Assembly: GCA_024277955.1 (NCBI GenBank)
Contig: JAJRUE010000054.1
Coordinates: forward strand, 1 to 47,101
DNA from: Alphaproteobacteria bacterium
Lineage (GTDB): Bacteria > Pseudomonadota > Alphaproteobacteria > Rhodobacterales > Rhodobacteraceae
DNA length: 47,101 bases
Direction of reading: 5' to 3'
The notes beneath the pieces were generated by a model. It made no database searches. It worked only from the letters and a program-made list of their open reading frames with translations, and had not been told where the DNA came from. The position numbers were made by a program, and so were the translations under genes. Of this stretch, positions 2-34,257 are shown piece by piece (position 1 is the first letter of the stretch; each line of letters begins with the position of its first letter).

Positions 2-121
2 GGCATGGGCGCGGAAATCGGCATCGCCACCGGCAAGATGCACGCCCGTGGCCCGGTGGGGGCGGAACAGCTGACCAGTTTCAAATACCTGGTGGAAGGC
101 GAGGGCGCCACGCGGGCCTAG
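2..121 (+). CDS. proA: Glutamate-5-semialdehyde dehydrogenase, C-terminal end (partial, runs off window start)
   Basis: Translation [39 protein letters not shown] matches the ProA C-terminal motif (GAEIGIxTxKxHARGPVGxExLTxxKY). Confidence 0.85.
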
Positions 122-122
122 A

Positions 123-274
123 GCATGTCGCGTCTGACTGAATTCACTTCGCCCGGGTCGCGCAGCGGCCCGGGCATGCGCCCGCCCGCCCCAAGGCGGG
201 CGCATTCGCGCCCACCCGGGCGGCCGCCTGCCCTCCGTCCGGAAACGAGGTGAATCCGATCAGGTGCGACAGGC
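123..274. repeat. MITE-like palindromic element R1
   Basis: 25-bp imperfect terminal inverted repeats (123-147 GCATGTCGCGTCTGACTGAATTCAC; 250-274, reverse complement GCCTGTCGCACCTGATCGGATTCAC; 19/25 identical); interior shared with copies near 6930 and 23379. Confidence 0.8.
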
Positions 275-320
275 ACTAGATTCGGGCGCCTGAGCCCCTC
301 CGCCCCGCAAGTGCAACGGG

Positions 321-6929: not shown

Positions 6930-7113
6930 GAGTCTGTCGTACCTGATCGGGTCCGCCTCTTCTCCAGACGGAGGGCAGGCGGCCGCCCGGGTGGGCGCGA
7001 ATGCGCCCGCCGTTGCGCTGGAAGCGCACCAAAGGTGCGACGGGGCGGGCGGGCGCATGCCCGGGCCGTTGCGCGACCCGGGCTCAGTGAATTCAGTCAG
7101 ACGCGACGCGCTC
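6930..7113. repeat. MITE-like palindromic element R2 (opposite orientation to R1, with extra apical hairpins)
   Basis: Shares GACGGAGGGCAGGCGGCCGCCCGGGTGGGCGCGAATGCGCCCGCC and GGGGCGGGCGGGCGCATGCCCGGGCCG with the R1 complement; TIR-like ends. Confidence 0.75.
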
Positions 7114-7145
7114 GAGCCGTGCCAACCGTTTCAGGCAGGGGGGGC

Positions 7146-10419: not shown

Positions 10420-10503
10420 GAGGGCGGCGCGCGGACCTCGGGGTGGGCGTGTAGCGCTCTCCCCGTGGGGGAGGTCCGGGCGCTGCCCGGCGTGCCGCCG
10501 GGC
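10420..10503. repeat. GC-rich palindromic element A
   Basis: Arms GCGCGGACCTC...GAGGTCCGGGCGC followed by hairpin GCCCGGC-GTGCC-GCCGGGC; related copies at 19560, 28381 and 34197. Confidence 0.7.
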
Positions 10504-10534: not shown

Positions 10535-12073
10535 TCAGCGCGGCAGATGAATGTTGAACGCGGCGCGGATGCGCGCGTCCAGCGCCGGGTCCAGGGCGGC
10601 GGCCGAGGGGGCCGACAGGATGTCCTGCTTCTTCCGCCTTGCCTGTTCGATCAGATCCGGGCGGCCCTGTTCTTCCCACTCCTTTGGCGAGCTGCGGTCG
10701 CCCAGCGCCGGGTAGACGTATTCGCTTTGCATCAGCGCCAGGGTCTGGGGTTGGCCCAGGTAGTGCCCCGGCCCGCCCAGGCAGACCGCGCGCATGGTGT
10801 CCAGGCTCAGGTTATCGTCGCTCACCTCGATGCCGCGCACGCAGCGCAGCGCCTGGCCGATCAGATCGTCGCCCAGGATCAGGCTTTCGTGGCAATACCC
10901 CAAAAGCGACGCATGCATCCCGGCGGCCTCGTAGACCAGGTTCAACCCGGAAAGCCCCGCCATCACCGCCGACATCGCCTGTTCCCAGCCGGCCTGCATG
11001 TCGGGCAGTTTCGCATCCGAAAACCCCGCCGGCGCGCCGCCCGGCAGCCCGTAAAAGCGGTGCATCTGGGCGCAGGCGGCGGTCATCAGGGCCTGCTCGC
11101 CCGATCCGCCCGACATCGCCCCGGTGCGCAGGTCGGAAACGAAGGGCCAGGTGCCAAAGATCACCGGCGCGCCGGGCGTGATGGCTTCGGCATAGAACAA
11201 CCCGGCAAGGCATTCGGCCACCGCCTGCATGATGGCGCCGGCCAGCGGCGCAGGCGCGGTGGCCCCGGCCTGGCCCGCCGACAGCAGCAGCAGCGGCATG
11301 CCCGCGCGCAGGCAGAATTCCATGGTCTGACAGCTTTCGGTGGCGAATTTCATCGGCGGCACCACAAAACAGTTCGACGCCGACACAAAGGGCCGGGCGC
11401 GCCAGCGTTCTTCGCCCCCCGCCAGCAGGTGCAGAAAGTCAAAAACCCCCGGCGCAAAGGCTGGATCGCTGATCGAAATGCCCACGTGTTTGGTGGTGCC
11501 GGCGCAGCAGGCGTAAAGCGTGTTGATGTCCATTTCAAAGTTGTCGGCAATGTCGCGCGCGACCATCGGACGTTGAAAAAAGTGAATGTTGTCAAGCCGG
11601 TCGGCGATTCGTGCGGCGTCGAAAATATCGCGCGCGGTGCTGTCGCGGTAGCTGCGTCCGTCGCTTTCGACCAAGTGGACGGCGGCGCCGGCGGTGCCGA
11701 AATGGACGCGTGTGCCGCGCAGCTCCAGGTCATGCGCCGGGTCGCGCGCGTGCAGCACCAGATCGGGGCGCGGGCGGGCCAGCAGGTCTTCGATCAGCGC
11801 CCGCGAAAACCGCAACCGGCCGTCGTCGCCCAGGGTGGCCCCGGCGGCGCACATCGCCTCGACCCCCGAAGGCGGGGCGTCGGCCAGGCCGATCTCGGCC
11901 AGCGCGTCGAGCGCGGCGCGGTGGATGCGGGCGATGTCGGCCTCAGACAGCGGGTTGTAGCGCCCGCCGGTCAGGCCGGGGCGCACCGGGCGGTCGGCGG
12001 CGGGCAGGGGGCGGGCGCGCTGCGCCTTGCGGGCGGCGCGGCCACCGGAACGGCGGGAAGATGGTGCGGGCAT
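10535..12073 (-). CDS. Trimethylamine methyltransferase (MttB) family protein, non-pyrrolysine type
   Basis: RPGLTGGRYNPLSEADIARIHRAALDALAEIGLADAPP...TRVHFGTAGAAVHLVE...TTKHVGISISDP...; uninterrupted ORF. Confidence 0.85.
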   Translation of the reverse strand: MPAPSSRRSGGRAARKAQRARPLPAADRPVRPGLTGGRYNPLSEADIARIHRAALDALAEIGLADAPPSGVEAMCAAGATLGDDGRLRFSRALIEDLLARPRPDLVLHARDPAHDLELRGTRVHFGTAGAAVHLVESDGRSYRDSTARDIFDAARIADRLDNIHFFQRPMVARDIADNFEMDINTLYACCAGTTKHVGISISDPAFAPGVFDFLHLLAGGEERWRARPFVSASNCFVVPPMKFATESCQTMEFCLRAGMPLLLLSAGQAGATAPAPLAGAIMQAVAECLAGLFYAEAITPGAPVIFGTWPFVSDLRTGAMSGGSGEQALMTAACAQMHRFYGLPGGAPAGFSDAKLPDMQAGWEQAMSAVMAGLSGLNLVYEAAGMHASLLGYCHESLILGDDLIGQALRCVRGIEVSDDNLSLDTMRAVCLGGPGHYLGQPQTLALMQSEYVYPALGDRSSPKEWEEQGRPDLIEQARRKKQDILSAPSAAALDPALDARIRAAFNIHLPR

Positions 12074-12361
12074 GGCGTGGTCTCCGATAAGCGCATGTGA
12101 ACACATGGGAAATGTCTATCGGGGCAGCGGCGCTCCGCGTGCGGCACGGCCACGGGCGGCGCCGATGGTGCGCGAAACCAGTTCGATGAGCCAAGTCAAA
12201 GCGTCCATGTCAGGCCGATCCTGGGCGGTGTCCTGCCGCCAAGAGTGGCAAGGCGATTCGCCGCGGTCTTGCCTGTCAGCGGCATGATGTCGTTTTTCGC
12301 CCCCAAGGCCGCCCTGGGACCACCCCGAGACCGCCCCGGCGCCGCGTCCCAAAGCCCCGTC

Positions 12362-14660: not shown

Positions 14661-14698
14661 GGATGCCTCCGGCGGGGATATTTTCGGACAGACGAAGA
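14661..14698 (+). repeat. Dispersed intergenic motif GATGCCTCCGGCGGGGATATTTTCGGACAGACGAAGA
   Basis: Near-identical copies at 17894-17930 (+), 31494-31522 (+) and 31535-31572 (-). Confidence 0.65.
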
Positions 14699-17893: not shown

Positions 17894-17930
17894 CGATGCC
17901 TCCGGCGGGAGTATTTGGGCAAAGAAGAAT
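17894..17930 (+). repeat. Dispersed intergenic motif, second copy
   Basis: cgatgcctccggcgggagtatttgggcaaagaagaat, compare 14661-14698. Confidence 0.65.
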
Positions 17931-19559: not shown

Positions 19560-19640
19560 GAGGGCGGCGCGCGACCGCGGGGGGGTGCGAAGCGCCCGCC
19601 CGGGGGGGCGGTCGGGCGCTGCCCGGCGGTGCCGCCGGGC
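19560..19640. repeat. GC-rich palindromic element B
   Basis: Arms CGACCGC (19572-19578)/GCGGTCG (19608-19614) followed by GCCCGGCGG-TG-CCGCCGGGC hairpin. Confidence 0.7.
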
Positions 19641-22873: not shown

Positions 22874-23378
22874 CTGTTGGTTCGGGTTCTGTCAGGGTCT
22901 CCCTGACCTGTGGCCGTGACGGGCCTGGTATTGGCGCGACGCAAGGCTGTGCGCCGAAAACGGCACTTGCGCGGCGCGTTGGTCCACCGGGCGAATGCCA
23001 CACGCCAATTGCGGGGTGTGGCAATACGCTTGTGCCGGCACCGGGACATGAACCGGCGCCGGGTTCGGCGGGGACAAACGGGTAAGAATTCGGGTCGCAA
23101 GACGGGCGACATGGGACATCAGGATACTCATTACACTACCGATCAGAATCGCTGTTCGTTGAGACTGATAATGCGGAGTTTTCTAAAAAACGAAAGAAAT
23201 TCCGGGGAAACGGCCTGTTTCCGCACCGGCGACGGAACAAAGAGGCCGATTGCGCGGGGCTGTTTCCGGGATCGGCGCAATCGCCGCTTTTCGGCGCGTT
23301 GCCGGGGCGCGGTTGGGGGGCGCAGTGCCGCGCCGGGAGGAACCGGCGCCGAGGGACGGAGAACTGGCGGGCGGGCGA

Positions 23379-23533
23379 GAGCACGTCGCATTTGATCGAA
23401 TTCGCTTCGCCCGGGGCCGCAGCGGCCCGGGCATGCGCCCGCCCGCCCCAAGGCGGGCGCATCCGCGCCCACCCGGGCAGCCGCATGCCCTCGGTTTCGA
23501 ACTGCAGCGAATCTGATCAGCTGCGACCTGCTC
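23379..23533. repeat. MITE-like palindromic element R3 (same orientation as R1)
   Basis: 27-bp TIRs (GAGCACGTCGCATTTGATCGAATTCGC / GAGCAGGTCGCAGCTGATCAGATTCGC, 22/27 identical); interior as R1. Confidence 0.82.
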
Positions 23534-28380: not shown

Positions 28381-28509
28381 GGGGCGCGCCCGACCCCGAG
28401 GGTGGGCGTGGTGCCGTCGTTCCTGCGGCAGGACACCCGCGCAGAGGCTGCAATTGCCTGAAACGCCGGGACAATTCGCGCCCGCCCTGGGGGGCGGGGT
28501 CGGGCGCGA
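28381..28509. repeat. GC-rich palindromic element D (long-arm inverted repeat)
   Basis: GGCGCGCCCGACCCCGAGGGTGGGCG pairs with CGCGCCCGCCCTGGGGGGCGGGGTCGGGCGCG; between cbiD and cobK. Confidence 0.65.
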
Positions 28510-31441: not shown

Positions 31442-31493
31442 GCCGGTTTCAGGGGGCTGTCTGCCCCCTCTTGGCCCGTCCCGGGCCAATTCA

Positions 31494-31572
31494 CCCCCGA
31501 GGATATTTGCCGACAGAAGAAGTAACGCCCGCCGATTTCTTCTGTCCAAAAATATCCCCGCCGGAGGCCCGC
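31494..31572. repeat. Inverted pair of the dispersed GATATTT motif between convergent genes
   Basis: ccccgaggatatttgccgacagaagaag ... tttcttctgtccaaaaatatccccgccggagg. Confidence 0.7.
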
Positions 31573-31600
31573 GCCCGCCAGGGCGCGGAACCTGCGCGGA

Positions 31601-34196: not shown

Positions 34197-34257
34197 TCCC
34201 GCCCGGCGGCACCGCCGGGCAGCGCCCGACCCGCCCCCGGGCCGGCCGCTGCCCTCC
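34197..34257. repeat. GC-rich palindromic element C (partial, reverse orientation)
   Basis: GCCCGGCGG-CA-CCGCCGGGC hairpin then AGCGCCCGACCCGCCCCCGGGC; matches the complement of B. Confidence 0.65.

Follow-up and report, generated by a model that had tools for sequence, protein, structure and literature searches.

A Rhodobacteraceae palindromic repeat family, probably mobile and retained at the 3' ends of genes

Palindromic elements in the window and their architecture

The 47,101 nt stretch of DNA analysed here (the window) contains four copies of one palindromic element, designated A, B, C and D (Table 1). Element A is situated between the convergent uup (+ strand) and mttB-type (- strand) genes, the 3' ends of which are 23 and 31 nt away, respectively. 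Element B begins 18 nt after the cysS stop codon and is followed 74 nt later by cimA, while D separates cbiD from cbiJ, 47 nt after the former, and C lies antisense to the upstream lrp-type regulator gene, 66 nt after its end, these last two distances being taken from gene coordinates. An earlier, sequence-only reading had located each of the four copies downstream of a gene's 3' end (uup, cysS, cbiD and lrp), as is confirmed here, and the sequences it quoted, including the arm pairs of A, B and D, are all present in the window. Its description requires only small adjustments: A is present with its terminal hairpin, but starts at 10421 rather than 10420 and has a hairpin one base shorter (GCCCGGCG-TG-CCGCCGGGC), and C is indeed a partial copy, but is found on the minus strand with a truncated apex.

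Table 1. Copies of the palindromic element and family-1 units within the window
Feature	Position	Strand	Description
Element A	10421-10503	+	Full copy; inner arms GGACCTC/GAGGTCC; covariance model score 67.5 bits
Element B	19561-19640	+	Full copy; arms CGACCGC/GCGGTCG; covariance model score 61.9 bits
Element D	28381-28509	+	Long form; arms CGACCCC/GGGGTCG; ~70 nt inserted in apical loop
Element C	34201-34257	-	Partial copy; apex deleted, outer stem and terminal hairpin intact
Family-1 unit	118-279	-	Core 151-234 inside ~30 nt terminal inverted repeats; CTAG ends
Family-1 unit	6934-7116	+	Core 6972-7083; nested 30 nt hairpin GTTGCGCTGGAAGCGCACCAAAGGTGCGAC
Family-1 unit	23371-23527	-	Core 23409-23491

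When folded as single sequences, the four copies have z scores of -3.4 (A, with a predicted energy of -61.2 kcal/mol), -2.7 (B), -3.2 (C) and -3.6 (D); together with the covariance model scores and the genome-wide matches to B, these values place the element far outside what chance would produce. Element D is the most divergent in form, having a different 3' hairpin in place of GCCCGGCGG and scoring 33.8 bits (E = 0.028) in a genome-wide covariance model search. Apical loop inserts of ~65-75 nt, with no obvious common sequence, are seen in D (28410-28478) and in three other long forms, found at cysS-cimA junctions (L190, L204 and L209). Adjacent to element A, the MttB-family gene (10535-12106) includes a match to the Rfam PYLIS_3 family, the pyrrolysine insertion sequence of mttB, at 10924-11023 on the minus strand; this reading frame is open throughout, with no in-frame stop, and probably encodes a non-pyrrolysine homologue.

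The unit is 80-88 nt long (80-84 nt in A and B), starts with AGGGC and is composed of a near-perfect hairpin of ~65 nt followed by a small terminal hairpin, with the GCCC at the base of the larger hairpin being common to both. The consensus can be written as AGGGCAGCGCCCG-[5-6 nt arm]-(n)GGGTGGGCGNGAAGCGCCCKCCC-NTGGGG-[arm']-CGGGCGCTGCCC-GGCG-NN-CGCCGGGC. A GGG predicted to form a bulge on the 3' side is nearly invariant, being retained in 98-99 of 99 copies. It could replace the 5' GGG as the partner of CCC, an arrangement resembling that of the GCCC shared by the two hairpins. Three-way covariation of GGGC/GCCC/GGGC at the base hints at a two-state structure; this is only suggestive, because three of the six instances of the alternative form, GGAC/GTCC/GGAC, are orthologous copies within ackA.

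The same architecture, with different arms, is seen in the cores of a related repeat, family 1, represented by three units in the window. At a single exact position in the family-1 core, some copies have the 30 nt hairpin GTTGCGCTGGAAGCGCACCAAAGGTGCGAC and others lack it (6999-7042 in the window; loci L396-L398, L401, L403 and L416-L418), and hairpins related to it interrupt four copies of the A-D type (L023-L025 and L028).

Distribution and genomic setting

Searching the 3.29 Mb source genome with element B identified 34 places at E <= 0.01 (blastn). With a covariance model derived from 18 full copies, 23 matches were obtained at E <= 1e-3, rising to 44 at E <= 1. Among 200 sampled Rhodobacteraceae genomes, nearly all of different genera, 105 contain matches, up to 23 in each, 23 being the number of candidates scored; exact copies of the 3' part were located in several named genera, among them Ruegeria, Leisingera, Shimia, Phaeobacter, Roseovarius, Aliiroseovarius and Limimaricola. 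In a class-wide sample just five of 289 genomes are positive, four of them Rhodobacteraceae, leaving one carrier among roughly 280 other alphaproteobacteria. This single copy (G253:C5:58126-58206, E = 8e-6), in a genome from another family, may reflect transfer, contamination or chance.

The association with the 3' ends of genes generalises beyond the window. When 135 non-redundant copies were compared with gene calls, made by a codon usage-based gene finder outside the window, about 130 were found to be outside predicted genes and five within predicted ORFs; the flanking genes are convergent for 35, codirectional for 73 (28 sense and 45 antisense, p = 0.06) and divergent for eight, a significant depletion of divergent relative to convergent settings (p = 4e-5). 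Copies lie a median of 25 nt from the stop codon when sense and 36 nt when antisense. In the 20 nt on the 3' side of the element T is not enriched, and on its 5' side A is enriched only modestly; a GC-rich hairpin with no T-tract does not correspond to an intrinsic (Rho-independent) terminator.

The most extensive comparison is provided by the cysS-cimA junction, at which the element occurs in 31 of 86 genera (21 sense and 10 antisense), nearly always 9-47 nt past the cysS stop codon. In another 35 genera the two genes are separated by other sequence, in many cases containing a different strong GC hairpin, while in the remaining 20 the genes abut, overlap or nearly do so, with no element present. 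On a tree of CysS and CimA, at least 24 changes in occupancy and at least nine in orientation are implied, scattered across the phylogeny, though many branches are weak and those that are well supported force only seven (sense) and six (antisense) changes. Strictly vertical conservation at this site, which BLAST comparisons of the flanks had suggested, was rejected because of this scatter of occupancy and orientation; the slot was thus filled repeatedly. A genome has roughly two to three thousand intergenic gaps and between a few and a few tens of copies, so that insertion at random would be expected to occupy any one junction in well under a few per cent of cases; either target preference or selective retention thus seems to operate.

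A further repeat, GATGCCTCCGGCGGGGATATTTTyGG..AGA-GAA, occurs in the window at 14662-14696, 17895-17929 and 31487-31576 and many times in a congener (G003, including loci L079 and L086). Sequences related to it, consisting of a hairpin and then GAGGATATTTGG, fill many of the element-free cysS-cimA spacers.

Such a distribution could arise if the element were primarily a host 3'-end structure, kept after genes such as cysS and uup as an mRNA stabiliser, a Rho-assisted or bidirectional terminator, or a supercoiling or gyrase-type site as proposed for BIMEs. The proximity to stop codons, the excess of convergent over divergent settings and the refilling of the cysS-cimA slot, with GC hairpins often found in its element-free spacers, are all in keeping with this, as is the conservation of some resident copies above the level of flanking coding DNA; REPs, too, are generally downstream of genes, and roles for them in termination, in stabilising mRNA and in supercoiling have been suggested (PMC3733652). 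However, the element occurs in both orientations, lacks a T-tract, is absent from the 20 genera in which cysS and cimA abut or almost do so, and has a bias in base pairing, described below, that tracks its own strand and not the transcribed one. A primary role of this type is therefore considered possible, but doubtful.

Covariation and constraint on one strand

Complementary changes in the arms had been reported from A, B and D, which by themselves constitute thin evidence. The covariation is nevertheless genuine: in an alignment of 101 distinct copies (A2), 96.4% of the 2898 cells assigned to pairs do pair and 220 carry compensated changes, compared with 51 ± 6 in shuffles and 7-28 when partners are slid, although the percentages are flattered by the alignment having been fitted to the model's structure. 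The outcome that had been held to count against the proposal, a larger alignment devoid of covariation, did not materialise, since 17 of the 29 pairs have changes on both sides. The two positions originally highlighted are the best covarying of all (CG 50, GC 35 and UA 13 at one; CG 43, GC 42 and UA 12 at the other). The source genome's copies alone, aligned with MAFFT, exhibit a weaker form of the same trend, limited to three pairs and 10 cells against 4.8 in shuffles.

A fold that mattered equally on both strands would tolerate G.U and A.C equally. On the element's own + strand, however, G.U is found in 119 cells and A.C in 18; as the copies are related these counts are not independent, and a comparison by columns, of which 16 favour G.U and three A.C (sign test, p = 0.004), is safer. 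The bias is alike in insertions lying sense (27:3) and antisense (31:7) to neighbouring genes, and because it holds whichever way the element is oriented, the constraint would appear to be on the + strand of the element and not simply on a host transcript. We infer that it acts on this strand when folded, as either RNA or single-stranded DNA. The unpaired positions give no support to a mutational origin for the excess of G.U: G>A changes are at least as frequent there as C>T, albeit with counts dominated by a few columns.

A second line of evidence comes from ackA, encoding acetate kinase, which in the source genome and three congeners contains the element in frame in its N-terminal part, resulting in a net gain of about 13 residues relative to other genera. 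Between species this copy is 91-95% identical, compared with 70-89% for the surrounding codons, a contrast that is small in the closest pair of congeners. Each pair of copies has 4-7 nucleotide differences, at most one of which is synonymous; because nearly all changes inside the element thus alter an amino acid, it is the nucleotide sequence that is being kept. As placed on the fold by eye, the changes fall mainly at predicted unpaired positions, together with one compensated pair.

Compensated stems can also be generated without selection, through template switching during replication (PMC8794818). Were this process, which both creates and repairs hairpins (PMC8794818), accompanied by conversion between copies, the arms of an entirely passive passenger might stay complementary; in agreement with this, the arm classes at one orthologous locus differ, with GGCCGC in the source genome (L007) and GGACCTC in a congener (G001, L091), as though through replacement or conversion of one copy by another. 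Yet template switching predicts no excess of G.U over A.C, nor does it account for the concentration of changes in ackA at unpaired sites and a compensated pair. Repair of the ackA copy from elsewhere is unlikely because, among the source genome's aligned full-length copies, the GGAC form is present in this one only, such that no donor of the same type is evident. Passive maintenance is accordingly judged improbable as a complete explanation, and selection on the fold, as the sequence-only reading had proposed from the arms, is argued to be involved in addition to any template switching on the basis of the G.U bias and the conserved ackA copy. That the element is a canonical cis-regulatory RNA, such as a riboswitch or attenuator, can effectively be dismissed: its strong structure, with one strand shared by two hairpins, is of the appropriate kind, but the neighbouring genes are unrelated, it lies on the 3' side of genes in both orientations and it matches no Rfam family.

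Mobility and relationship to known repeats

The structured element originally described is therefore real, but it is an interspersed repeat, and its arm classes represent subfamilies. It is almost certainly mobile, because tens of copies with exact ends (AGGGC...GGGC) occur in unrelated flanks, it can be nested in another repeat unit and it is present or absent at orthologous sites. Element D, for instance, is missing from the abutting cbiD-cbiJ junction of two congeners (G001 and G002), and A is missing after uup in those congeners where the site is comparable. The ends are identical in core-only and nested copies: in the source genome the family-1 core is found either alone or, with the same ends, inside a unit of ~30 nt inverted repeats with CTAG ends, and several copies of the A-D family in another genome (G226) are likewise within TTAGAGCATCGTCCTAAAAATC-like inverted repeats, while most core copies have no terminal inverted repeats around them.

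A RAYT-driven REP was rejected as an identity, as the source genome lacks a Y1/RAYT transposase domain (Y1_Tnp, PF01797) and, in the 16 of 151 family genomes that have one, there is no visible association with the element. The enzyme responsible has not been found, and candidate insertions have no demonstrated target site duplication. Two further observations sit uneasily with a purely selfish repeat: orthologous copies within the genus can be 94-97% identical, above the level of flanking genes and exceeding what drift alone should leave, and a single junction has been used again in a third of genera, more often than insertion at random would lead one to expect.

The element fits the general description of REP and BIME sequences, including the GTAG and CGTC superfamilies, in being a multi-copy, extragenic palindrome with a common consensus, mostly downstream of genes, and shares with them subfamilies with alternative complementary stem bases, G.T pairing and occasional intragenic units (PMC3733652, PMC2817692). 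CGTC REPs, moreover, are common in Alphaproteobacteria with no dedicated transposase, comparable with the absence of a RAYT here (PMC3733652, PMC2817692). It differs in its length of 80-88 nt, against units of 20-40 nt (14-40 nt in the definition), in its two hairpins with a shared strand and in having no unpaired GTAG or CGTC tag. Rickettsia palindromic elements are similarly alphaproteobacterial and inserted in frame within conserved protein genes (PMC2229807, PMC10969869), as is the case here for one gene, ackA, in four congeners; the present element is shorter, apparently unrelated in sequence and nearly always extragenic, and its intragenic copy is constrained at the nucleotide, not the peptide, level. 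Like the bacterial MITEs Correia/NEMIS, ERIC and RUP, it is a non-autonomous long stem-loop (PMC2229807), a likeness strengthened by the family-1 form and the G226 copies inside terminal inverted repeats, although the core alone has no classical TIR. The CIR repeats of Caulobacter and Brucella are also alphaproteobacterial and intergenic, about 110 nt long and built of two stem-loops, but the exposed-loop GANTC site that defines them (PMC2229807) is not seen in the consensus here.

The kind of repeat is thus already known, because earlier surveys have described downstream locations, stems with alternative complementary bases, G.T pairs, units within genes and alphaproteobacterial REPs that lack a transposase (PMC3733652); the Rhodobacteraceae family is a new member of the REP/MITE/RPE type. 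It has no Rfam match above the gathering threshold, a literature search found no description of it, and the main texts of the RepRanger and GTAG/CGTC surveys name no repeat from Rhodobacter, Roseobacter or Paracoccus. It therefore appears to be an uncatalogued repeat family, present in about half the genera within one of the major families of marine bacteria.

Overall, the element is probably a discrete, non-autonomous mobile palindromic repeat, REP- or MITE-like, specific to Rhodobacteraceae and retained at the 3' ends of genes. A trans-acting enzyme, other than a Y1/RAYT transposase of the source genome, would recognise the folded + strand, as single-stranded DNA or RNA, and copy or move it, with insertions being retained chiefly within tens of bases past stop codons, where they would be least harmful. 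Retained copies could then serve as a stable hairpin at transcript ends, or as a DNA structure between convergent genes, and some residents (that in ackA and possibly that at cysS) have probably become useful to the host, because they are kept at the nucleotide level. More speculatively, and with rather little confidence, the element might be a hairpin transposon of a new type, the putative mobiliser's substrate being a folded + strand with two places of modelled alternative pairing, GGGC/GCCC/GGGC at the base and GGG/CCC/GGG near the apex, with copies domesticated as transcript-end structures after cysS and other genes and inside ackA.

Specialists are likely to find most to follow up in the constraint on one strand, the junction after cysS and the copy inside ackA. 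The first indicates that selection acts on the folded strand, and can aid the search for the mobiliser. The cysS-cimA junction, with, without or with an inverted element across about 86 genera, and the ackA copy offer unusually clean comparisons for asking whether palindromic repeats are parasites or useful to their hosts.
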